Assembly (NCBI GenBank): GCA_005879805.1
Contig: VBKL01000065.1
Span: forward strand, 1 to 64,000
Direction: 5' to 3'
Length of the DNA: 64,000 nt
DNA from: Deltaproteobacteria bacterium
Lineage (GTDB): Bacteria > Myxococcota > Myxococcia > Myxococcales > 40CM-4-68-19
The translations under genes were made by a program, and so were the position numbers. Of the stretch, positions 20,584 through 33,988 are shown one piece after another; positions within the stretch are counted from its first letter, which is position 1, and every line of letters begins with the position of its first letter. A model generated the notes under the pieces. The model worked only from the letters and a program-made list of their open reading frames with translations, was not told the origin of the DNA and searched no databases.

Positions 20584-20611
20584 TTGACAGCACGTCGGGC
20601 CGCGTTATGTT
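20584..20611 (+). promoter_or_regulatory. phasin promoter
   Basis: A perfect -35 TTGACA (20584-20589) and TATGTT (20606-20611, four of six matches to TATAAT) are separated by 16 bases. Operator 2 abuts the -35 side and operator 3 overlaps the -10, so a bound PhaR would block polymerase. The predicted transcript start, near 20618, lies about 53 bases before the phasin ATG. Confidence 0.65.
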
Positions 20612-20622
20612 GCGCTGCACAA
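20608..20622. promoter_or_regulatory. PhaR-type operator 3, overlapping the phasin -10
   Basis: TGTTGC-GCT-GCACAA keeps the TGTTGC left arm and GCA of the right arm. Its centre lies 45 bases from that of operator 2, and it covers the -10 element of the phasin promoter. Confidence 0.55.
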
Positions 20623-20670
20623 GAGAAACCGGCGGTGCGCAGGGCCCCGCCGAAAACCAAGGAGCAGACC

Positions 20671-20937
20671 ATGGCGGAGTTCAAGGCGCAGGTGGAGCAG
20701 GCGGCGAATTCGTTCGAGAAGGCGGTCTCGGAGCAGACCACCAGGTTCGAGGCGGCGGTCTCGGAATGGACCAAGCTGCAGAGCAAGGGGTTCGCGCAGG
20801 CGAACGCGATCTTCGAGGACTTCGCCCGCGTGGCCCGCGAGCAGATCGCTTTCGCCGATCAGCTGGGCGGCGAGTGGCGCAAGGTCGTTCTCGCCTCGGC
20901 GAAGAGCGCCAGCGAAGTTCTTGCGCCAAAGGCGTAG
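20671..20937 (+). CDS. phaP: phasin (PHA granule-associated protein)
   Basis: An 88-residue, nearly all-helical amphipathic protein without Cys (AEFKAQVEQAANSFEKAVSE, TRFEAAVSEWTKLQSKGFAQ, FEDFARVAREQIAFADQLGGEW), as in short phasins that coat PHA granules. AAGGAG lies 6 bases before ATG 20671. Position directly after phaR and behind a promoter framed by PhaR-type operators is typical of phaP. It is shorter than many phasins (about 110-190), but the amphipathic pattern is complete. The assignment rests mainly on context. Confidence 0.8.
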   Translation: MAEFKAQVEQAANSFEKAVSEQTTRFEAAVSEWTKLQSKGFAQANAIFEDFARVAREQIAFADQLGGEWRKVVLASAKSASEVLAPKA

Positions 20938-21054
20938 AGTGACCTTTCCTGGCCAGGCGGCGGTGGCTGCCTGGCCTGCAGGTCCCTGGCTCGCTTACTG
21001 CATCGGGCCTCCACGGGCGCCATCGCCCATTACCCGATCGCAGGAGGGGTTCCC

Positions 21055-21801
21055 TTGGCTGCAAAGCTGGAAGGAAGAGTCGCGCTCGTCACGGGCGCGT
21101 CGCGAGGACTGGGACGTGCCATCGCGCTGAAGCTCGCGGAGGAAGGCGCTCGGGTCGCGCTCAACTACCGCAGCGGTGAGCTCGAAGCGCGACAGGTCGC
21201 GGACGAGATCATCGCGCGAGGCGGGACGACCTTCCTCCTCCGCGGGGACGTGAGCGTGAAGGAGGAAGCGCGCGCCCTCGTCGCCAAGACCATCGAGCAC
21301 TGGGGACGTCTCGACATCCTCGTCAACAACGCCGGGATCACCCGCGACAAATCGCTCAAGAAGCTCACCGACGACGACTGGACCGAGGTCATCGCCGTCA
21401 ACCTGAACAGCGTGTACTACTGCACGAGCGCGGCGATGAAGGCGATGTCCGATCAGAAGTTCGGGCGCATCGTCAACATCAGCTCGTTCGTCGGCCAGGC
21501 GGGGAACTTCGGCCAGACCAACTACTCGGCCTCGAAGGGCGGCATCATCGCCTTCACCAAGAGCGCCGCCATCGAGCTCGCCAAGTTCAACATCACCGTC
21601 AACGCCATCGCTCCGGGCTTCACCGAGACCGACATGCTCGCCAAGGTCGCCGAGCCGGTCAGGCAGCAGATCCTGGCGAAGATCCCGATGGGCAGATTCG
21701 GCAAGCCGGAAGAGATCGCGAAGGCCGTGGCGTTCCTCTGCACCGACGGCGACTACATCACCGGCCAGCAGATCAACGTCAACGGCGGCGTCTACATGTG
21801 A
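21055..21801 (+). CDS. phaB: acetoacetyl-CoA reductase (FabG-like short-chain dehydrogenase)
   Basis: A 248-residue classical short-chain dehydrogenase. TGASRGLGRAIA binds NADPH, NNAG is present, and the catalytic set is Ser in NISSFVG, Tyr and Lys in YSASKGG. PGFTETDML and the terminal GQQINVNGGVYM are characteristic. TTG 21055 has AGGAGG 8 bases upstream. In this PHA locus it should reduce acetoacetyl-CoA to (R)-3-hydroxybutyryl-CoA. FabG (3-oxoacyl-ACP reductase) is the paralogous alternative; context favours PhaB. Confidence 0.88.
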   Translation: MAAKLEGRVALVTGASRGLGRAIALKLAEEGARVALNYRSGELEARQVADEIIARGGTTFLLRGDVSVKEEARALVAKTIEHWGRLDILVNNAGITRDKSLKKLTDDDWTEVIAVNLNSVYYCTSAAMKAMSDQKFGRIVNISSFVGQAGNFGQTNYSASKGGIIAFTKSAAIELAKFNITVNAIAPGFTETDMLAKVAEPVRQQILAKIPMGRFGKPEEIAKAVAFLCTDGDYITGQQINVNGGVYM

Positions 21802-21812
21802 AAGAGGGAACC

Positions 21813-22199
21813 GTGCCCTTTGCATTCGATTTGATGGGAAAGTTGCGCAAGGCCCGCGACCAGGGAATGGAGTCGTGGGCCAAAACAGCCATCCAGCTCA
21901 CCAGCTCGGAGCCGTACGCGAGAGCGAACTACCTGCTCTCGCAGCCCTGGCTCATCGCCGCAGGCATCTTCCGCAAGTCGCGCGAGAAGGCGATGTCGCA
22001 GGTGCTCGCCCAGCTCAACATGCCTTCCCGTGAGGAGGTGCTGGGGCTCTCCCAGCGCCTCACCCACATCGAGATGGTGCTCGACGATCTGGGCGCGGCG
22101 ATCGAGGCGGCGCGGTCCGCACCCGCCGAGCCCGAAGCTCCCCGCGCGGCGCAGGGGAACGGTGCACGCGTCCGCCCGCTCGCGGCCGGAGAGGGATGA
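21813..22199 (+). CDS. phaE/phasin-like helical protein preceding phaC
   Basis: A 128-residue helical protein (AFDLMGKLRKARDQGMESW, YARANYLLSQPWLIAAGIFR, SREEVLGLSQRLTHIEMVLDDL). The last part (SREEVLGLSQRLTHIE) resembles the C-terminal regulatory segment of class III synthase subunit PhaE and poly(R)-hydroxyalkanoic acid synthase-associated proteins. GTG 21813 follows GAGGGAACC; an upstream GTG at 21798 overlaps phaB. Its stop overlaps the start of phaC (ATGA), so the two are translationally coupled. It probably forms a complex with PhaC; the exact class is uncertain. Confidence 0.65.
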   Translation: MPFAFDLMGKLRKARDQGMESWAKTAIQLTSSEPYARANYLLSQPWLIAAGIFRKSREKAMSQVLAQLNMPSREEVLGLSQRLTHIEMVLDDLGAAIEAARSAPAEPEAPRAAQGNGARVRPLAAGEG

Positions 22200-23075
22200 G
22201 CATGGCCGGACCCCAGGGAGTCTCCGGCGGCTTCGCTGACGCCTTCGAGCGGCTTTCCCTCGCCGCCCGCAACGCGCTCAAGGTCAGCACCACCCGGGCG
22301 ACGATCGGGAACACCCGGACCGGAGGACAGCGATCTCGGGCTCGAAGATTACGTGCTCGAGTACCTGCCCCGCGCGCTCCGGAAGGTGAAGGCGGTCTCG
22401 GGATCGAGCTCCTTCACCGTCCTCGGATGGTGCATCGGCGCCATCCTCTCGACGCTCTACGCCGCGCTCCGGCCGGACGACGGGATCGAAAACCTCATCC
22501 TCCTCACCGCGCCGCTCGACTTCGCCAACAAGGAAGCGATCAAGCTCTCCCGCATGACCGCGGAGCGCAATTTCGACGTCGATCGCATGCTCGACGCCCA
22601 CGGAAACATGCCGGCCGAGTTGCTCGACTACGGCGCGAAGATGCTCAAGCCGGTGGAGAACTTCATCGGCAGCTACGTGCGGCTCTTCGACAACCTCCAC
22701 GATCCGAAGGTCGTCGATTCCTGGCACGCCATGAACACCTGGGTGTCGGACGGCATCCCGATGGCGGCCCGGACGTACCGCCAGCTGGTGGTCGAGTTCT
22801 ACCGCGAGAACCGGCTGATGAACGGCACCCTGTCGCTGCGGGGCGAGAAGGTGGATCTCGGCCGGCTGCGCGCGAACCTGCTCGACGTCATCGCGGAGGA
22901 CGACCACATCACGCCGCCTTGCCAGTCGGAGACGGTGGTCGAGAAGGTGGGCAGCGCCGACAAGACGTTGCTGCGGGTTCCCGGCGGCCACATCGGAATG
23001 ATGGTGGGCGGCGCGGCCGCCCGGTCGACGTGGCCGAAGATCGAAGGCTGGCTTTCGGCGCGATCGAAGGGGTAG
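22196..23075 (+). pseudogene. phaC: class III-like PHA synthase phaC with internal frame-breaking deletion
   Basis: The C-terminal 240 residues are clearly PhaC: GLEDYVLEYLPRALRKVK, lipase-like box GWCIGAI with the catalytic Cys, TAPLDFANKEA, MNTWVSDGIPM, Asp in VIAEDDHITPP and His in GGHIGMMVG. The N-terminal 40 residues (from ATG 22196, FERLSLAARNALKV, TTRATIGNT) belong to the same family. Between them about 60 residues expected in the alpha/beta core are missing, and the frame changes near 22310. The junction word CCCGGACCG fits both flanks (NTRTE and PGPED coding), as expected for a deletion between 9-base direct repeats or a collapsed assembly. As written the gene cannot make a synthase. 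It would use (R)-3-hydroxyacyl-CoA to make the polymer. Confidence 0.8.
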
Positions 23076-23080
23076 TGCGT

Positions 23081-24295
23081 TCAGGAGCCGCGAATGAAGC
23101 TGGCGATGCGGGGAGCGATCTCCTCTCGCCAGCGCCTTCCGCTGAAGACTCCGTAGTGGCCCGCGCCGGACTGCACGTACTCTTGCCGGCGTCCCGCGGG
23201 GATCGACGTGCAGAGATCGTGCGCCGCAAAGGTCTGGCCGGCCCCGGTGATGTCGTCCTTCTCGCCCTCGATGGTGAACAGCGCCGTCGCCTCGATGGCC
23301 GTGGGGCGGACCGGCCGCTTTCCGCGCCAGACCATCTCGCCGCGCGCCAGATCGTGGCGCTGGAAGACGCTGGCGATGGTCTGCAGGTAGTACTCGGCGG
23401 GCAGGTCCATCACCGCCAGGTAGTCGTCGTAGAAGCGCCGCACGACCTCCGCGCTCTCTTCGTCGCCCGCGAGGAGGTCGCGGTACAGGCGGCGGTGGGC
23501 ATCGGCGTGGCGGCCGACGTTGAGCGAGACGAACGCGGTGAGTTGCAAGAAACCCGGATAGACCTTGCGCAAGAAGCCCGGCTCGCCGGCCGGGACGCGC
23601 TGGATGGCCGTCATCTCGAACCAGCGCAACGAGCGGGTGGTCGCGACGCGGTCGACCTGCGTCGGGTTCTTGCGCGCGTCGATGGGCCCGGCCATGAGCG
23701 TCATGCTCCGCGGCGTCGCGGGATCCCGATCCTCGGCGAGGAGCGAGACGGCCGCGAGGACCGGAACGCTCGGCTGGCACACCGCGATGACATGCACGTC
23801 GGGTCCCAGGGCCTGCAGGAACCGCCGCACGAGATCGACGTAGTCGTCCAGATCGAACCGGCCCGCCGAGAGCGGGACGAGGCGGGCATCGATCCAGTCG
23901 GTGAGGTAGAGGTCGTGATCGGGCAGGAGCCGCTGGACGGTGTCGCGCAAGAGCGATGCGTGGTGGCCCGAGAGCGGAGCGACCACCAGCACCTTCGGGT
24001 CGCGGCGGCGCGCGTCGCGCTCGAAGTGGACCAGATTGCAGAACGGCGTGCCCAGGCAGACCACTTCCCGCACCGCGACGGTACGGCCGTCGATCCCGGT
24101 CGTCTCGAGCCCGAAGGGCGGCTTCGCGTAGCTGCGCGTCGCCCTCTCGAGAAGCTCGCTCGCCGACGCGACCGACCGGCCGAAAAGCGTTCCCGCTCCG
24201 GGGAAGGCGGGGTGCGACCAGAGGGCCTGCACCGCCGAGGCCCACGAGTTGACCGGAGCAACCATCGCGCGGCCGAGGCTGTAGGAACCGTACAT
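23081..24295 (-). CDS. phaZ: intracellular PHB depolymerase
   Basis: A 404-residue soluble protein that matches intracellular poly(3-hydroxybutyrate) depolymerases of the PhaZ1 type. It has no signal peptide. The nucleophile region VHVIAVCQPSVPVLAA has Cys173 in place of the usual lipase Ser, as in this family. Further marks are YLTDWIDARLVPLSAGRF, MTLMAGPIDARKNPT, the Asp in EGEKDDITGAG, and the His in SGAGHYGVFSG. It degrades native granules to hydroxybutyrate units. It is convergent with phaC, only 5 bases apart, and divergent from the KAS III-like gene. Confidence 0.93.
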   Translation of the reverse strand: MYGSYSLGRAMVAPVNSWASAVQALWSHPAFPGAGTLFGRSVASASELLERATRSYAKPPFGLETTGIDGRTVAVREVVCLGTPFCNLVHFERDARRRDPKVLVVAPLSGHHASLLRDTVQRLLPDHDLYLTDWIDARLVPLSAGRFDLDDYVDLVRRFLQALGPDVHVIAVCQPSVPVLAAVSLLAEDRDPATPRSMTLMAGPIDARKNPTQVDRVATTRSLRWFEMTAIQRVPAGEPGFLRKVYPGFLQLTAFVSLNVGRHADAHRRLYRDLLAGDEESAEVVRRFYDDYLAVMDLPAEYYLQTIASVFQRHDLARGEMVWRGKRPVRPTAIEATALFTIEGEKDDITGAGQTFAAHDLCTSIPAGRRQEYVQSGAGHYGVFSGRRWREEIAPRIASFIRGS

Positions 24296-24414
24296 GGCGA
24301 AACCCTAGCCCAGAACTGCGCGCGCCGGGCATTCGTCGCGCAAGACTGTCGGGTGGCCGCCGTCTTGCTTGGTTTGCGTCGAGGTCGCCTGTCCAAATCG
24401 CGAAGGATTTGCCG

Positions 24415-26364
24415 ATGAAGCCGTTCGTGCTGAACCGTCAGGGACGTCTCGTCTTTCCCTCGAACTTCTTCCCCGAGCTCGATTTCAGCGTCTTCGACAC
24501 ACTCGAGCAGTTCGAGTCGGTGATCGAGCGCGACTTCGAGACCAAGGCTCCGACGGGGTCGGACATCCTCAAACGTGTGCAGTCGGCGGCGTATCCGACC
24601 CGCCTGGAGCTCTTGCGCGATCTGGCCCTCAATCTCCTCTGGGTGAATCGCTACGCGATCACCATGTACGTGAAGCGGCCGGCGCGCTGGCAGGACGTCC
24701 CGCGCACGCGCGACGACGTCTTCCTGCCGGTGCTCACTCCCTGGGAGGAGGGCGAGAAGAAGGTGGCCGCGGTGGAGAGCGCCTACCGCTCGCTGCCGGC
24801 GCGCTGGGACGCGAGTCTCGAGGACGCCATCTTCGACGCGCTCTTCGGGCTCTTCCGCCACCGGCGCCACCAGGCGACCGACCTCCCGGCGATCCCACCC
24901 ACGGTGAAGGAGGCGCTGAGCGATCCGTCGAACCGCACCTATCACCTGCGCCAGCACGATCCGGATTACCCGGTCCATTCGACGCAGGCGATCCTCGATT
25001 GCGAAGGCCCGGTGCCCGAGCTGGAGGCACTCAGCCGGTGGGCGATGGTGCTGCAGAACCAGCATCCCTGGGAGCGGGCGCAGTCCCGCCTCGCGCCGCT
25101 CTCGGAGCTGCGCGGCGACGACTTCGTCATCCTCTACCGGCCTCGCTCGCCCGAAGTGATGGGCTTCATCGAGCGGGTGCGGGCGGGCCGCCCGCGACCT
25201 GCGCCGCGCCCCGCGAGGCCTGCCAGCCCGCCAGTGAAACCGTACCCGCCGCTCCAGGTGGCGAAGCGCTTCGCCGTGCAGCCGCGCATCGAGGCGCTCG
25301 CGGCGGTGAACGGCGAGCACGAGTGCACCAACGAGGACCTCATCCGGAACACCGCCTTCAACTGGTCGCCCATGTCGGCCGAGGAGATCCGCGAGAAGAC
25401 CGGGATCGAGTCGCGCCGGTACACCGAGCGATCGCTGGAGGAGATCTCGCTCGAGGCGGCGGAGATCGCGCTCGCGAAGTCGGGCCGCAAGCCGGAGGAG
25501 ATCGGGGCAGTCCTCTTCTGCTCCTGCACCAGCACGCGCCTCATCCCCTCGGTCGCGACCTGGATCTCCGGCCAGCTCGGCATGCTGCAGACCCATGCCT
25601 CCTGCGACATCGTCGCTGCCTGCGCGGGCCTGCCCTACGGACTCTCGGAGGCCGTGCGCCTGCTCCAGGAAGTCGAGAGGCCCGTGCTGCTCGTCTGCGC
25701 GGAGAAGTTCTCCGACAAGATCGGGACGGTGCGCACCTCGCGCATGATCTTCGGCGACGGCGCGGCCGCGCTGGTCGTCGGCCCGGCGCCCCTCGGAACG
25801 CAAACCGACGTCGAGGTCCTGCAGACGTACGCGAGCGGGCCGGTGAGCGAGGTGAACTCGATCATCTGGCCGAACCCCGAGTTCGACAACAACATCACCG
25901 TCTTCGGCCCCGAGGTGAAATCGCTCGCCCAGAGGTACCTGAAGCAGATGATCGGAGAGCTCTCCGAGCTCCCGGGTCCGGACGGGACGGGAAGGCTCCT
26001 CGACGCCGTCGACCTGGTCGTGCCGCACCAGGCAAACAAGACGATGGTGAGCAAGATGGCCGCCGCCGTCGGTCTCGCGCAGGACCGGCTCTACTTCAAC
26101 ATCGAGCGGGTGGGTAACGCCTCCTCGGCGAGCATCCCGCTGGCGATTCGCGACGCCGTTCGCGACGGCGTCATCGACCGCCCGATGCTGATCTTCGCCC
26201 CCGGTTTTGGCGCTGGCGCCGTCGGCGGGTACGCGGTGCTGCGGATCGATCCGGCGATCGTGGCGCTGGAGCAGCCTCTTGCGGCTCGAGCGCCGGCCGC
26301 AGCCGCTGTGGAGCGGCCCGTCACCACTTCCTCGGAGGACGTGCGCAAAGCCTTCGGCGACTGA
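24415..26364 (+). CDS. KAS III (FabH)-like enzyme with a long N-terminal extension
   Basis: The C-terminal 340 residues are a 3-oxoacyl-ACP synthase III-type thiolase fold. The catalytic Cys lies near residue 402 (CDIVAACAGLPYG), His in LVVPHQANKTM and Asn in VGNASSASIP. The N-terminal 280 residues form an extra region rich in Arg, Pro and Trp (FVLNRQGRLVFPSNFFPELD, LLWVNRYAITMYVKRP, NRTYHLRQHDPDYPVHSTQA). I do not recognise it. The whole protein is 649 residues, about twice a normal FabH. GAAGGA precedes ATG 24415 by 8 bases. Neighbours are phaZ and the carboxylase, so it probably condenses acyl-CoA units, but the product is unknown. Confidence 0.8.
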   Translation: MKPFVLNRQGRLVFPSNFFPELDFSVFDTLEQFESVIERDFETKAPTGSDILKRVQSAAYPTRLELLRDLALNLLWVNRYAITMYVKRPARWQDVPRTRDDVFLPVLTPWEEGEKKVAAVESAYRSLPARWDASLEDAIFDALFGLFRHRRHQATDLPAIPPTVKEALSDPSNRTYHLRQHDPDYPVHSTQAILDCEGPVPELEALSRWAMVLQNQHPWERAQSRLAPLSELRGDDFVILYRPRSPEVMGFIERVRAGRPRPAPRPARPASPPVKPYPPLQVAKRFAVQPRIEALAAVNGEHECTNEDLIRNTAFNWSPMSAEEIREKTGIESRRYTERSLEEISLEAAEIALAKSGRKPEEIGAVLFCSCTSTRLIPSVATWISGQLGMLQTHASCDIVAACAGLPYGLSEAVRLLQEVERPVLLVCAEKFSDKIGTVRTSRMIFGDGAAALVVGPAPLGTQTDVEVLQTYASGPVSEVNSIIWPNPEFDNNITVFGPEVKSLAQRYLKQMIGELSELPGPDGTGRLLDAVDLVVPHQANKTMVSKMAAAVGLAQDRLYFNIERVGNASSASIPLAIRDAVRDGVIDRPMLIFAPGFGAGAVGGYAVLRIDPAIVALEQPLAARAPAAAAVERPVTTSSEDVRKAFGD

Positions 26365-26458
26365 CGGGCGGGAAGGCCCGCAGGATTTGCACCGGCCCGG
26401 AGCGAAGCACCGCGAAACGGACGGCACCGGCGATGCAAGGTGGGCATCGGGAGGAGCG

Positions 26459-26704
26459 ATGACCATGCGGACTGAGACGATGACATGGGCGGGGCCGTTG
26501 CCGGACGAGATGGATCCGACCGCCGAGGCGATGTGGGAGGGGCCGATGACCTTCGCCGGCCACTGGGCCGCAAAGAGCGCCGCCGCATCCCCGCCGTCGA
26601 ACGGGATCGATCCCATCGTCTGGGCCGGCCCGCTGCCCGCCGAGGCGCCGGTCCAGTCCTTGTTTCTCGAGAAACGCCGGCAGTTCACAGCGGCGGCACG
26701 CTGA
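26459..26704 (+). CDS. small W-x-G-P repeat protein, unknown function
   Basis: An 81-residue protein with GAGGAG just upstream of ATG 26459. It contains two near-identical motifs WAGPLPDEMDP and WAGPLPAEAP, plus a related MWEGPMTF between them. It has no membrane segment or signal peptide, and Trp is unusually frequent for such a short protein. The tail (SLFLEKRRQFTAAAR) is basic. I recognise no family. It lies between the KAS III-like gene (94 bases upstream) and the fused carboxylase (33 bases downstream), so it is probably co-transcribed with one or both. The good ribosome site and repeat pattern argue that it is a real gene. Confidence 0.55.
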   Translation: MTMRTETMTWAGPLPDEMDPTAEAMWEGPMTFAGHWAAKSAAASPPSNGIDPIVWAGPLPAEAPVQSLFLEKRRQFTAAAR

Positions 26705-26737
26705 GCGAGGATGCTCGGCGCCAGCCGGGGAGGCGCC

Positions 26738-29700
26738 ATGGCGCATCCGATCGTGGGGCTCGGTCGCGTCGGAGTAGTGCAGGGCGAGGAAGCAGCTCGC
26801 GCCGCACGGATTGTTCGCGAGATCGCTCGAGCGGGGCAGGCGACCGTCGCGGTGCCGATCCGTCTCCAGCCTGGAGAGCCGGTCGAGAATGCCCTTCGCG
26901 AGGCGAAGGTCGACAGCGCCTGGCTCGGGCCCGCGCCGTTGCGCGACCGCGCTGCGTTCGCCCGGGCCTGCATCAGGGCGGGAGCGACGCACGTCGGGCC
27001 GCCCGCCGACGTACTCGCGCAGCTTTCCGATCGAGAAGGGATCGCGCGGCTCGCGGCGCAGATCGGGGCACCGCTCGCGGTCGAGAGCCATTCCCGCGCC
27101 CGTCTCTTCGAGATCGTCGTCGCGCGCGACCATCGCGGCAGCCTTCGCGCGCTGGGCGTCGGCGATGCCTCGTTACGATTCGATGGGCGCGCGGTGCTCG
27201 TCGAGTCGCCACCCGCGCTCCTCACCGAGAACGAGCGCAGGGAGGCTCGAGATCTCGCTGCCCGCGCGTGCGAAGCGACGGGCTGGACGGGAATCTGCGC
27301 GGTGCGGCTTCTCCTCTTCCCCGCCGGGTCCACGTCGCGCTGGTCGCTTGCCGGCCTCGATTGCTTCGCCGACGCGGCGCCCGCCATCGAAGCGGTCGCG
27401 AGCGTCGATTTCGTCCGACTGGCGTTCCAGATCGCAGCCGGGGTTCCGCTCGGCGACCGCTCGCCGGTCGAGCAGGGCCATGCGTTCGCGGCCCGCATCA
27501 TCGCTCGCGATCCCGAGTCGGAAGCCATTGCCCGGCCTGGTCCCGTCGAAGTCCTCGCGATGCCGTCGGGCCCTGGGCTGCGGGCGGACGTCGAAGTCCG
27601 GCATGGCCAGAGTCCCGAGGGACCAGGGAGCGTGCTCGTCACGCTCGTGAGCCATGGCGCCGGCAGGGAAGAGGCGTCGCAGCGGTTGCAAGAGGCGCTC
27701 GCCGAAGGCGATCTGCTCCTGCGCGGCAGCGGCACCTCGAAAGCATGGCTCCGCGCGCTCGCCGGCCGGCCGGAAATCGCCGCCGGCGAGACGTCGATCG
27801 GCCTCCTCGATCGGCTCGCCTCGTCGGGAAAGCTGGTCGAGCCTCGTCGTGAGGCGGCGCTGCTGGCCGCGGCCATCGAGGCGTACCACGCCGAGGAGGA
27901 TCTGGAGCGGGCCCGCTTCCTCGCCGAGGCCAGGCGCGGCAGACCGCGCGTCGGTCCCTCTTCCGGCCGCGCCGTGGAGCTGACCTGTCTCGGACGCCGG
28001 TATCGGCTGGAAGTGCGCCAGCTGGGTCCGAACGAGTACCGCGTCGAGAGCGGGCTCGAGGCCCCGGCGGCCGTGCGGCTGGAGCGGCTCGGCCGCTTCG
28101 AGCAGCGGCTCGAGTGGCAAGGCCTTCTGCATCGGGTCTTCCTCTCGACGGACGGGCTCCGTCAACTCGTCCAGGTGGACGACGTCGCGCATCTCGTCTC
28201 CCGCGAGCCGGCCGGGATCGTGGCGGCGCCGATGCCCGCGGTGGTAGCGGCGATCCAGGTGGAGGTCGGACAGCAGGTGGCGCCCGGCGATCCGCTGGTG
28301 CGCATCGAGTCGATGAAGGTGCAGGTGGAGGTGACCGCCCCGGCTGCCGGGACGGTGCGCGAGATCCTGGTGGCGGGCGCGCGGGCTCGCGGTGCGCTGG
28401 CGCGAGCTCTCCGCCGCTGCTCCGCGCGACGATGCCGGAGTCCTCCGAGCCGAGAACGCCGCGCTCTGCGCGTTCGTGGATCTCCAGTCGCTCTTCAGCC
28501 GCAAGGCGCCCCTCGAGGGCGGCGCGGCGCCGCCCCTCGAAGAGCTCTGGCGCTACCTGCACGAGCCGGAAGCCCGCGGCGCGGGGCTTTCCCCGGCGTT
28601 CGTCGCGCTGCTGCGCCCGGCGCTCGCGCAGTACCGCGTCTCGATGGATGCGCCGGGCCGCGATCTGGAACTGGCCCTCCTCCGCATCCAGAAATCCCGG
28701 GAGCGGGTGGGCGAGCAGCCGGGACCCATCGCGTCGATCCTCGAGCGCTGGCTCGCCTCGGACGATCCGCTGCCCGCCGAAGGCGGGACTTCGCGAGAGA
28801 CGCTCGACAGGCTGGTCGACCTCGGACACGAGCGCTTCCCGGCAGTCGCCGATCTCGCCCGCGAAGCGCGGTACCGGAATTTCGACAAGCCGGCGCTGGA
28901 CCGGGTGCGCGCTGAAACGTTGGAGCGGGCGCAGAGCGATCTCGCGCGCCTTCCCGATTCCTCCGGCGACGAGCGGGAGGCGATCCTCGACCGGCTGGTC
29001 GCCTGCACGCAGCCGATTTCGACGACGCTCATCTCGCATATCGCCGCAACGGAATCGCCGGCGCTCCGGGCCCGGCTCGTGGAAACGCTGGTCCGCCGCT
29101 ATTACCGGTTCCGGGCGCTCGAACGGGTGGCCTCCTCCGACGTCGAGGGCATCCCGTGCGCGTGGGTGGATTACGAGCTTCGCGGCGTCCGTTACCGGCT
29201 CTTCGCCTGCTCGGCTCCGGCCGCCGGCGTCTCGGAGGGTGCGCGCAAGCTTGCGCGGCTCGCGAGCGACGTGCCCCAGGAGCGCGAGATCCTGCTCGAC
29301 CTGTACCTCGGAGAGCAGGGTCCGCGGAGCCCGCCCGACCAGGTCGCCGATTCGCTGCGGGACGTCTTGCTGAAGACGTCGTTCGCCCGTCCGCCGCGAC
29401 GGATCTCGATGGTGGTGGCAGGCGGCCTGCGCGAAGGCCGCAGGCAGTCTCCGCAGCAGAGGTCCGCGATCTCACGCCGGTCCGCGATGCGGCCGGCCAC
29501 GTCATCGAGCTTCCCGAACTGGAGCGCATCCTCCACGAGGCGCTCGGAGGGATGCGGGTCCACCAGGCGCAGCGGGCGCCGCACGAGCGGATGGAATGGA
29601 ATCGCGTGCAGCTCACGCTCACGCCGCCCCTCGATCTGCCGCGCGAGGAGGTCGAGCGCATCGCCGCCCGGCTCGCTCCGGCCACCGAGGGCCTGGGGCT

Positions 29701-31558
29701 GGAGATGGTCTCCTTGACCGCGCGCGTGCCCGATCCCGGGACCGGGCAATTGCGCGAGACACTCTTGCGCGTCGTCGCACCGGGCCAGGGCCTCAGCATC
29801 CGCTGGGACGAGCCCACCGAAGAGCCGCTGCAGCCGATGTCGCAATACCAGCAGAAGGTGGTCCAGCTTCGCCGCCGCGGGCTGGTCCATCCCTTCGAGC
29901 TCGTACGGATGCTGGCGCAGCCGGCCGGAGTCCACGCCGCCGCGCCGCCGGGCGAATTCGTCGAATACGATCTGGACGCCTCGAACGCGCTGGTTCCCGT
30001 GCAGCGGCCGCCCGGAAGCAACACCGCCAACGTGGTGGTCGGCGTGGTGCGCAACTTCACCAGGCGGTACCCGGAAGGCATGGAGCGGGTGGTGCTGCTC
30101 GGCGATCCCGGCCGCGAGATGGGATCGGTCGCCGAGCCCGAATGCCGGCGCATCGCCGCCGCTCTCGATCTGGCGGAGAAGCTCCGGGCCCCGGTGGAAT
30201 GGTTCGAGGTGTGCGCGGGCGCGAAGATCTCGATGACGAGCGGCACCGAGAACATGGACTGGGTCTCGCGCGTCCTGCGCCGGATCATCGAGTTCACCCA
30301 GCGGGGAGGCGAGATCAACGTGGTGGTGCTGGGAATCGCCGTCGGCGCGCAGCCGTACTGGAACGCCGAAGCGACCATGCTCATGCACACCAAGGGGATC
30401 CTGGTGATGGCCCCCGGATCGACCATGGTGCTCACCGGGAAGCAGGCCCTCGAGTATTCCGGGAGCGTCTCCGCCGAGGACAACGAAGGCATCGGCGGCT
30501 ACGACCGCATCATGGGCCCGAACGGCCAGGCGCAGTACCGGGCGGGCAGCGTCTCCGAGGCGCTGCAGATCCTGCTTCGCCATTACGATCACTGCTACGT
30601 CGCGCCGGGGGAACGGTTCCCGCGGCGCGCGGAGACGGCCGATCCGCGCGATCGCGACGTGCGCGACGACCCGCACGGTCCGGAGGGCGGCGCGGGTTTC
30701 GCGACCGTCGGCGAGATCTTCAGCGCCGAGCACAACCCCGATCGCAAGAAGCCGTTCGAGATCCGCAAGGTGATGGGAGCGGCGATCGATCGCGACTTCC
30801 CGCCTCTCGAGCGCTGGCGCGATCTGCGCGGCGGCGAGACGGCGGTGGTCTGGGACGCGCATCTGGGCGGCTGGCCGGTGTGCCTCATCGGCATCCAGTC
30901 CCGGCCGCTGCCGCGGCTGGAGTTCGTGCCCGCCGACGGTCCGGAGCTGTGGTCGGCGGGAACGCTGTTCCCGCAGTCGTCGAAGAAGATCGCTCGCGCG
31001 GTGAACTCCGCGAGCGGCAACCGGCCGCTCGTGATCCTCGCCAATCTTTCCGGCTTCGACGGATCGCCCGAGTCCATGCGGCGCCTGCAACTCGAATACG
31101 GTGCCGAGATCGGGCGCGCCGTGGTCAACTTCCAGGGGCCCATCGCCTTTTGCGTCGTCTCGCGCTACCACGGCGGCGCTTTCGTCGTCTTCGCCCGGAC
31201 GCTGACGGAGAGCATCGAGATCGCGGCCATCGAAGGAGCGCGCGCCTCCGTGATCGGCGGCGCGCCGGCGGCGGCCGTGGTCTTCGCTCGCGAGGTGGAG
31301 ACCCGGACGCGGAAGGATCCCCGCGTCCTCGCAGCGGAGAAGAGCGCTTCGCGGGGACACGCCCGGGGCGTCGCGCAGATGATAGAGGCGGTCCGTTCGG
31401 AAAAACTCGGCGAGGTGGGCGAGGAGTACGATCGGGTCCACTCGGTCGAGCGGGCCCTGAAGGTCGGGTCCCTGGACCAGATCATCGCCCCCCGCGAATT
31501 ACGACCCTACTTGATCGATGTTGTCGAGCGGGGAATCGCGCGATTCACGAAAAACTGA
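26738..31558 (+). CDS. eukaryote-like fused acyl-CoA carboxylase, broken by two frame changes
   Basis: One long protein in three frame segments (26738 to about 28388, 28392 to about 29440, then to 31558). GGGGAGG precedes ATG 26738. Order: a biotin-carboxylase-like region (residues 1-300) that lacks the Gly-rich ATP loop and the ExNxRxQVEH motif, a linker, and a biotinyl domain with Lys near residue 526 (RIESMKVQVEV, usual form AMKM). Next come a central helical region as in eukaryotic acetyl-CoA carboxylase, and a carboxyltransferase (LDASNALVPVQRPPG, EWFEVCAGAKISMTSG, GGWPVCLIGIQSRPL, NLSGFDGSPESMRR). It should carboxylate acetyl-, propionyl- or a similar acyl-CoA. With an inactive-looking biotin carboxylase it may need a partner. 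Total coding length is about 1600 residues; relatives I recall are larger. Confidence 0.75.
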
Positions 31559-31711
31559 ATAAATTTACGGTCCTACCCGATATCGGCTCGTTTCCTGACC
31601 GGCCGGTATATTTGCGGTGACTCTGCGTATGTTGGTATGAAACTGTAATGGCTCCGACCAATGGCGGGGTCCCGTGAACGCCGTCGGATCGCTCCCGGGG
31701 GGGAGACCAAC

Positions 31712-31903
31712 ATGCTCCGAACCATCGTGCTCGCTTCTGCCTTCGCGTTCCTCATCGCAGTTCCCGCCCTTGCGGACAGAGATGATCACGGCCACGGAGG
31801 CGGTCACCACGACGCGCCCGAGCCCCTGACGATGATCGGCCTCGGCGCGGGCGGTGCCGGCCTGGCCTACGCGAAGTGGAAGAAGAGCCGGGCCAGGCGA
31901 TAA
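31712..31903 (+). CDS. 63-residue His/Asp-rich PEP-CTERM protein (exosortase substrate)
   Basis: ATG 31712 follows a G-rich ribosome site. The protein has three parts. Residues 1-21 are a Sec signal peptide ending VPALA. Residues 22-36 are DRDDHGHGGGHHDAP, a very short acidic, His-rich mature segment. The rest is a PEP-CTERM sorting tail: PEPLTMIGLGAGG, a hydrophobic stretch, and a basic end KWKKSRARR. Exosortases cleave such tails after transport. The mature peptide would be only about 15 residues and might bind metal. The exosortase gene starts 12 bases after the stop, so this is probably its dedicated substrate. Confidence 0.85.
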   Translation: MLRTIVLASAFAFLIAVPALADRDDHGHGGGHHDAPEPLTMIGLGAGGAGLAYAKWKKSRARR

Positions 31904-31914
31904 GGGCCCCGCAA

Positions 31915-32748
31915 GTGACATCGCGCATCGCAGTGTTCCGCGCCGCGGCGATCGCCGTCGCCGCCATACAGCTTGCGCTCGCTGCACGCTCCGGAGCGGA
32001 AGAGTTCTGGCTCATTTCCTTCCTCGCTTGGGGCGGCGCGCGGCTCGTGGCCCGCGCCGGCGGGGACGAGACGCCTGCCTTCGCGGTTCGGATCGCGGGA
32101 GGCGTCCTGCTCGCGTCGTCGCTCTTCGAGCTGGCGATTGCGCAGCAGTACCAGATGGGTCATCGCCTCGCGCCGCTCGCCGGCGGGCTCGGGCTCCTGC
32201 TCCTCGCCGGGGGCTTCCTATGGGTCCGCGCGAACGGGCGCGCCCTCGTGCTGCTTTGCTTGCCGATGCTGCATCCGCCGCCGGTGGCCGTGCGGGAGCT
32301 CCTCGACACCTCTCGCGCCACGGCGTTCGTGAGCGCCCTGTTCCTGCGCCTGTCCGGCGTGGCGGTCGAGCGGCGCGGGACGCTGCTCGTATTGCCGGAC
32401 TCTTCCTTGAGCGTCGGGGGCGCCTGCTCGGGCATCAACCAGATTTTCCAGCTGCTCGCGCTCGCGGTGCTCGCCGCGATCATCCTCGAGGTGACGCCGC
32501 GGCGCGCGGCGTGGCTCGCAGGGAGCGCCGTCGCTGTGGGCCTTGCCGTAAATGCCCTGCGCATCGCCTTTCTCGCGGTGCTCGCCAATCGGGGGGAGAC
32601 CCGGCTCTTCGACCTGTGGCACCAGGGGCCACCCGCGCTGCTCGTCTCGGCCGCCGCTACCGCCGTGTGGGGCGGGCTCTCGCTGCTCGTCTCCCGGTCC
32701 GGCGGCGGCGCGCCTACCGGGTCAGCCACGAGCGCGACCGCGCCGTGA
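31915..32748 (+). CDS. exosortase/archaeosortase family transpeptidase
   Basis: A 277-residue protein with about eight membrane helices. The three conserved catalytic positions of exosortases are present: Cys171 in VGGACSGINQI, Arg216 in VNALRIAFLAV and His236 in FDLWHQGPPAL. It would cut the PEP-CTERM tail of the preceding protein and probably attach it to an envelope component. GTG 31915 was chosen because it lies downstream of the substrate's stop; the frame is open back to 31876. The gene's 3' end overlaps the convergent glycosyltransferase by 35 bases. Confidence 0.88.
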   Translation: MTSRIAVFRAAAIAVAAIQLALAARSGAEEFWLISFLAWGGARLVARAGGDETPAFAVRIAGGVLLASSLFELAIAQQYQMGHRLAPLAGGLGLLLLAGGFLWVRANGRALVLLCLPMLHPPPVAVRELLDTSRATAFVSALFLRLSGVAVERRGTLLVLPDSSLSVGGACSGINQIFQLLALAVLAAIILEVTPRRAAWLAGSAVAVGLAVNALRIAFLAVLANRGETRLFDLWHQGPPALLVSAAATAVWGGLSLLVSRSGGGAPTGSATSATAP

Positions 32749-33988
32749 ACGCGGCGTAGGGAAGGTTCCAGAAGAGCGCCACGGCGGAGAAGCAGGCGTA
32801 GAGCACGCCGTAGACGAGATCCATCGAGCGCTCGCTGTGCAGGTAGAAGAGGAGGACGAACGCGGTCCCCATTCCGCCGAGCGCGATGAGTCGCGTCAGC
32901 AAGATCGGATCATTCCAGACGAGCCCGAGCCAGAGGTACGAGCTGACGTATCCGATGGGAAAGCGCAGGTTGGTGAGCACCGTCTCGAAGAGCGAAGCGG
33001 CACGCGCCAGAGGCGGCCGCTTCCAGACGATGCGGAAGAAGCGCAACTCCTCGCGTATGTAGCTGCGGTCCCAGCGCAGGTACATCTTGGCGAGCTTCCA
33101 GTAGGTGGTCGGGACGATGGTGTGGACCACCGCCGATCGCTGGTAGAGCGTGTCCCAGCCGCGGTCGAGCAGGTAGTTGGTGAGCGCCCGATCCTCTCCG
33201 TATGTGCAGGGCGCGCCGAGGAACTTCTGCGCCTTCCACTCGTCGAGCACTTCGATCACGGCCGCGCGCCGATAGGCCGCGAGCGCGCCCGGGCAGCAGT
33301 AAACGGTCCCGTACACCGACTGCACCGCGCGCAAGAGATCGAAGGAGAGAACGAAGTGCACGTGCAGCATGCGCGGGAGGAGTCCCGAGCGGCGATTGTA
33401 GACGCTCACCTTGCCGGCCACCGCGCCGACTCGCGGATCGCGGAACACACCGGCGAGCGAGAGAAGCGCTCCGCGATCGATCACGCTGTCGGAATCGATG
33501 GTGACCACCACGTCGCCCGACGCTCGCCGGAACCCCGCCTCGAGGGCGGCGCGTTTGCCGCGATTCTCGGGGAACCGGACTGCGGTGACCAGTCCGGGCC
33601 GTCGGCCGGCGGCGCGCCCGATGTGCTCCCAGGTGTCGTCGGTGCTCCCGTCGTCGACGACGAGGATCTGGAGGCGGCCGTGCGGATACTCGGCCGCCGC
33701 AGCCGATTCGATGGCTTCCAGCACCATCGCTCCCTCGTTGTAGGCGGGGATGATCACCGTCATCGCCGGCGCGTCGGCGAGCGTGGCGGGCGGCGCCGCC
33801 CGATAGCGGAACCAGAGCACGGTCCGGAAGCAGAGCAGGAGCATGCCCGACGCCGCCCAGAGGACTCCCGGTCCGCGGACCGGGCTGCGCAGGTGCGCAA
33901 CGAAATTGTCGCGGAAGAAGACCAGGACGATGGCGCACAGACCGCAGACGATGGCCGTACGGACGATCCGTTCCCAACGCTCGTTCAC
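32714..33988 (-). CDS. membrane glycosyltransferase family 2 (hyaluronan/chitin-synthase-like)
   Basis: A 424-residue processive-type GT2. Two N-terminal membrane helices are followed by the catalytic core: VIIPAYNEGAMVLEAIES, VVDDGSTDDT, TIDSDSVID (DxD), GEDRALTNYLL and KMYLRWDRSYIREELRF, the counterpart of the (Q/R)xxRW motif. At least four C-terminal helices close the protein. Length and motifs match NodC/hyaluronan synthase relatives that make and export a polysaccharide. It converges on the exosortase gene; exosortases are commonly linked to exopolysaccharide genes. Confidence 0.85.
   Translation of the reverse strand: MNERWERIVRTAIVCGLCAIVLVFFRDNFVAHLRSPVRGPGVLWAASGMLLLCFRTVLWFRYRAAPPATLADAPAMTVIIPAYNEGAMVLEAIESAAAAEYPHGRLQILVVDDGSTDDTWEHIGRAAGRRPGLVTAVRFPENRGKRAALEAGFRRASGDVVVTIDSDSVIDRGALLSLAGVFRDPRVGAVAGKVSVYNRRSGLLPRMLHVHFVLSFDLLRAVQSVYGTVYCCPGALAAYRRAAVIEVLDEWKAQKFLGAPCTYGEDRALTNYLLDRGWDTLYQRSAVVHTIVPTTYWKLAKMYLRWDRSYIREELRFFRIVWKRPPLARAASLFETVLTNLRFPIGYVSSYLWLGLVWNDPILLTRLIALGGMGTAFVLLFYLHSERSMDLVYGVLYACFSAVALFWNLPYAAFTARSRSWLTR

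Follow-up and report, generated by a model that had tools for sequence, protein, structure and literature searches.

A probable dedicated exosortase/PEP-CTERM pair with a micro-cargo in a Myxococcota genome

A micro PEP-CTERM protein and its adjoining exosortase
A very small PEP-CTERM protein and the exosortase encoded directly downstream of it probably form a dedicated pair that delivers a tiny peptide to an envelope lipid or glycan. Both genes lie in the middle of the window, the whole stretch of 64,000 nucleotides that was analysed (Table 1). The pair belongs to a known type of protein sorting, not a new one, and is a small and little-studied form of it; its novelty lies in joining a CrtA-like, otherwise unnamed Myxococcota exosortase with a micro-cargo, an arrangement present in two lineages with differently charged mature peptides.

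Table 1. Features of the locus, in window coordinates, with the predicted layout of the cargo protein
Feature	Position	Strand	Details
Intergenic leader 5′ of the cargo gene	31559..31711	+	153 bp
Micro PEP-CTERM cargo	31712..31903	+	63 aa; ATG at 31712, stop ends at 31903
Cargo layout (predicted, residues)			Signal peptide 1-21 (ALA site); mature stretch DRDDHGHGGGHHDA 22-35; PEP 36-38; hydrophobic stretch; KWKKSRARR end
Exosortase, cyanoexosortase-A-like	31915..32748	+	GTG start; 277 aa; C171/R216/H236
GT2 glycosyltransferase, NodC/PgaC-like (below cut-off)	32714..33988	-	424 aa

The cargo protein, which reads MLRTIVLASAFAFLIAVPALA / DRDDHGHGGGHHDA / PEPLTMIGLGAGGAGLAYAKWKKSRARR in its three parts, combines all the features of an exosortase substrate: a signal peptide, a C-terminal PEP motif, a hydrophobic stretch and a basic end. 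Its cut sites are predictions read from the ALA and PEP motifs, and the predicted mature peptide between them contains four His and four Asp among its 14 residues. Against the NCBIfam model TIGR02595 (PEP_CTERM) the protein scores 21.3 bits, above the cut-off of 16, and against PF07589 it reaches 19.8 bits, slightly below the cut-off of 20.7. A MYXO-CTERM identity was ruled out, as that motif needs an invariant C-terminal Cys and the cargo contains no Cys. A ribosome-binding-like sequence, GGGGGGGAGA, lies directly 5′ of the gene; searches of the intergenic leader gave no clear promoter, no sigma-54 or sigma-70 site of convincing quality, and no match to a riboswitch or other Rfam family.

Small ORFs that combine a signal peptide, a PEP motif, a hydrophobic run and a basic end were also counted in a chance scan. 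The source genome yielded exactly one case in 187 kb and the relatives one in 106 kb, each located immediately 5′ of an exosortase gene; 1.9 Mb of simulated DNA yielded no case. The arrangement of cargo and exosortase exceeds chance expectation.

The spacer between the cargo stop and the GTG start of the exosortase is 11 bases long. The enzyme carries the motifs CSG (C171), NALR (R216) and LWH (H236), whose Cys, Arg and His line up with the catalytic residues of other exosortases, and C171, G173, N213 and R216 are invariant in an alignment of nine myxococcal exosortases. It passes the superfamily model PF09721 (EpsH/archaeosortase; 90 bits, cut-off 25.7) and TIGR04178 (49.6 bits, cut-off 23), and scores under the cut-off of every named subfamily; a search by sequence returned no related PDB chain. 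The enzyme is a divergent cyanoexosortase-A-like protein. An earlier note on this DNA had described the gene anatomy accurately: its cargo stretch of about 15 residues was correct to within one residue (DRDDHGHGGGHHDA, then PEP), the three catalytic residues that it listed are all present, and the exosortase does start closely downstream of the cargo.

One exosortase and one cargo in the source assembly
The source assembly, a 5.0 Mb bin that is 87.9% complete, contains one exosortase. A permissive whole-genome scan for PEP-CTERM sequences gave five matches, with the cargo ORF ranked first, and the other four were rejected for their non-PEP contexts, such as the N-terminal segment of a membrane protein. 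One credible PEP-CTERM gene is left, and it adjoins the sole exosortase. This bears out the dedicated one-cargo system proposed in the earlier note: with one enzyme and one adjacent target, the two genes are a dedicated single-target exosortase pair within an assembly of this completeness, from which further cargo could be missing because it is incomplete. Single-target sorting systems, those of exosortases included, are a category named by Haft and Varghese (2011; PMC3237569).

Misbinning was considered and rejected: the contig's aceE shares 84% identity with its counterpart in a same-genus genome, and the tetranucleotide composition of the contig agrees with that of other contigs (correlation 0.996). 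Synteny with a same-genus genome stops at the pyruvate dehydrogenase operon, and 11 further family members, the same-genus G011 (93% complete) among them, lack the exosortase.

Recurrence of the micro-cargo
Searches at the level of the order and the class, covering 145-147 genomes, found a clearly related exosortase in one only, the Myxococcaceae MAG PMV_1_maxbin.012 (G092), at 32-36% identity. Directly upstream of it, a gene of 67 codons for amino acids encodes a signal peptide, 18 residues (DGGGSRGKRQTNARRHKA) and a PEP tail; this predicted mature stretch is basic and contains one His. The small size of the cargo thus recurs beside the nearest homologous exosortase (locus L041), which is where the earlier note had proposed to look for conservation of the small gene, but the His-richness does not. 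A scan of contigs with a two-row exosortase alignment and strict patterns returned the known Myxococcaceae MAG only, and searches of plasmid and viral collections gave no matches. In the G092 exosortase (L002/L041/L047; residues DFALWDGEG) the Cys and Arg are kept and an Asp stands at the expected third catalytic His, so this copy may be inactive or altered.

Upstream of the G092 pair lies an EpsV-like polysaccharide chain-length determinant (co-polymerase; 209 bits, below cut-off), which also matches TIGR03007, the chain-length family of the XrtA system, at 63 bits, again below cut-off. The cluster upstream also contains an NRPS and a GT2, and these three genes together place the G092 pair among exopolysaccharide genes; a link to exopolysaccharide is supported because the relative adjoins the EpsV-like protein. 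The NRPS of this exopolysaccharide and exosortase cluster (L047, 3451-7341) comprises condensation, AMP-binding, carrier and thioesterase domains, and could indicate a peptide-modified polysaccharide.

The second example also weighs on whether a larger PEP-CTERM protein has shrunk to the present cargo in a system that has lost its function, a reading that we consider improbable. Lone PEP-CTERM genes may be remnants, as Haft 2006 (PMC1569441) cautioned, and decay would fit a single PEP-CTERM gene per genome, a system missing from close relatives and a G092 exosortase without its catalytic His. Both genes in the window are nevertheless intact, with three catalytic residues in the enzyme and a closely spaced stop and start, and a similar micro-cargo stands beside an exosortase of 32% identity, where decay twice to the same layout is hardly to be expected.

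The composition of the G092 peptide likewise bears on the earlier note's suggestion that the cargo may be metal-binding, which would be a sub-case of the dedicated pair: a surface peptide whose His and Asp were selected for Zn, Ni or Cu on exopolysaccharide. In the peptide itself, what speaks for this is its composition, and there is a parallel in ZepA, a larger zinc-binding PEP-CTERM protein whose flexible N-terminus contains His residues (PMC10957091). Given that the sole related micro-cargo is basic and that the scanned neighbours include no metal transporter or Zur-like gene, we lend this possibility little credence.

Comparison with known sorting systems
The best match of the cargo is TIGR04200 (targ_of_XrtJ, PExPT-CTERM), a whole-protein model of 57 positions. 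Cargo residues 4-63 align to model positions 4-57, near its whole length, but the score of 23.5 bits falls short of the cut-off of 40, and no XrtJ model is among the 14 NCBIfam matches of the exosortase at E≤1. Across 195 Myxococcota genomes TIGR04200 gave weak matches only, the cargo of the window ranking first, followed by four others. A micro-cargo has precedent, because TIGR04200 already models a tiny target that is little more than a signal peptide and a tail. In the case of the enzymes, cyanoexosortase A (TIGR03763) is the best family for both myxococcal micro-cargo exosortases, with near full-length matches of 104.9 and 94.4 bits; both are below the 150-bit cut-off, however, and both enzymes occur in Myxococcota.

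The other Myxococcaceae exosortases examined, G092's apart, are mostly XrtQ/XrtN-like. These resemble the present system in having one adjoining PEP-CTERM gene and no other credible one in genome scans, but they belong to another exosortase subfamily and their VIT-type cargo is about 490 aa or longer. At several Myxococcaceae loci (L004, L005, L007-L010) the VIT-type cargo ends in PEPETW[ML]LL followed by hydrophobic and basic stretches; other tail-like matches inspected in Myxococcaceae genomes were MYXO-CTERM-looking or spurious. One-to-one pairing of an exosortase with a PEP-CTERM gene is common among the examples seen in the order. Rhombosortase/GlyGly-CTERM pairs, including those of Anaeromyxobacter (PMC3237569), also place one sorting protease beside one substrate gene, although the enzyme and the signal motif are unrelated. 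To call the present pair unusual, as the earlier note did, is therefore an overstatement: dedicated pairs are established (PMC3237569) and a micro-target has already been modelled.

Proposed action of the pair
The family model, as outlined in PMC1569441, PMC11980579 and PMC12188702, comprises Sec export, removal of the signal peptide and processing of the PEP tail by the exosortase. For the dedicated pair we infer, past the gene anatomy, that the cargo would be exported by Sec and lose its signal peptide, while the tail of PEP, hydrophobic stretch and basic end would keep it in the inner membrane before the exosortase acts. The adjacent enzyme would then cut at or near PEP and transfer the new C-terminus to an acceptor, which, judging from the family, is most likely an envelope lipid or glycan. 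The product would be a 14-residue Asp/His/Gly peptide shown on, or linked to, surface material.

It is very unlikely that the 63-residue protein is instead a small two-helix membrane partner of the exosortase, either an accessory subunit or a pseudo-substrate. Two hydrophobic segments with a short linker between them would suit such a role, as would a linker that varies between the two examples beside a conserved PEP motif and tail layout; against this, the tail exceeds the cut-off of a PEP-CTERM substrate model, and the assembly holds no other substrate for the exosortase.

A broader form of the dedicated pair is speculative and, on balance, unlikely. Here the enzymes would represent an unnamed myxococcal exosortase subfamily whose sole substrate serves as a throw-away carrier of a peptide of 14-18 residues, and which tags a surface glycan or lipid with that peptide rather than sorting proteins, the charge shifting between lineages. 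For the acceptor of exosortase substrates, a pair with one processed substrate of about 14 residues would be a clean test case, because mass spectrometry could read the whole mature product together with any attached group.

The neighbouring glycosyltransferase and the surroundings
The GT2 gene converges on the exosortase gene, their 3′ ends overlapping by 35 bp. The earlier note had this position right, but its inclusion of the GT2 in the system is not supported. A homologue in G005 (100% complete), 67% identical over query residues 39-424, adjoins epimerases and a GT4, and searches of that genome found no exosortase and no PEP-CTERM match; because of this, the GT2 is probably an independent neighbour and is not counted as part of the system. 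The G092 contig stops shortly after the exosortase, which limits the view of GT2 linkage there. A three-gene module, in which the adjacent, convergent and processive-synthase-like GT2 would make a polysaccharide carrying the peptide, is highly improbable in view of the sugar-epimerase/GT4 setting of the G005 homologue and the fact that convergent genes do not form an operon.

The neighbours scanned in the window include no polysaccharide export genes. The ORF adjoining the cargo on the carboxylase side has no close match among 11 family members. Positions 20584-31558 of the window form a lineage-specific stretch of polyhydroxyalkanoate-type genes, which include a PHB depolymerase C-terminus, an acyl-carrier synthase III-like gene and parts of a biotin carboxylase.
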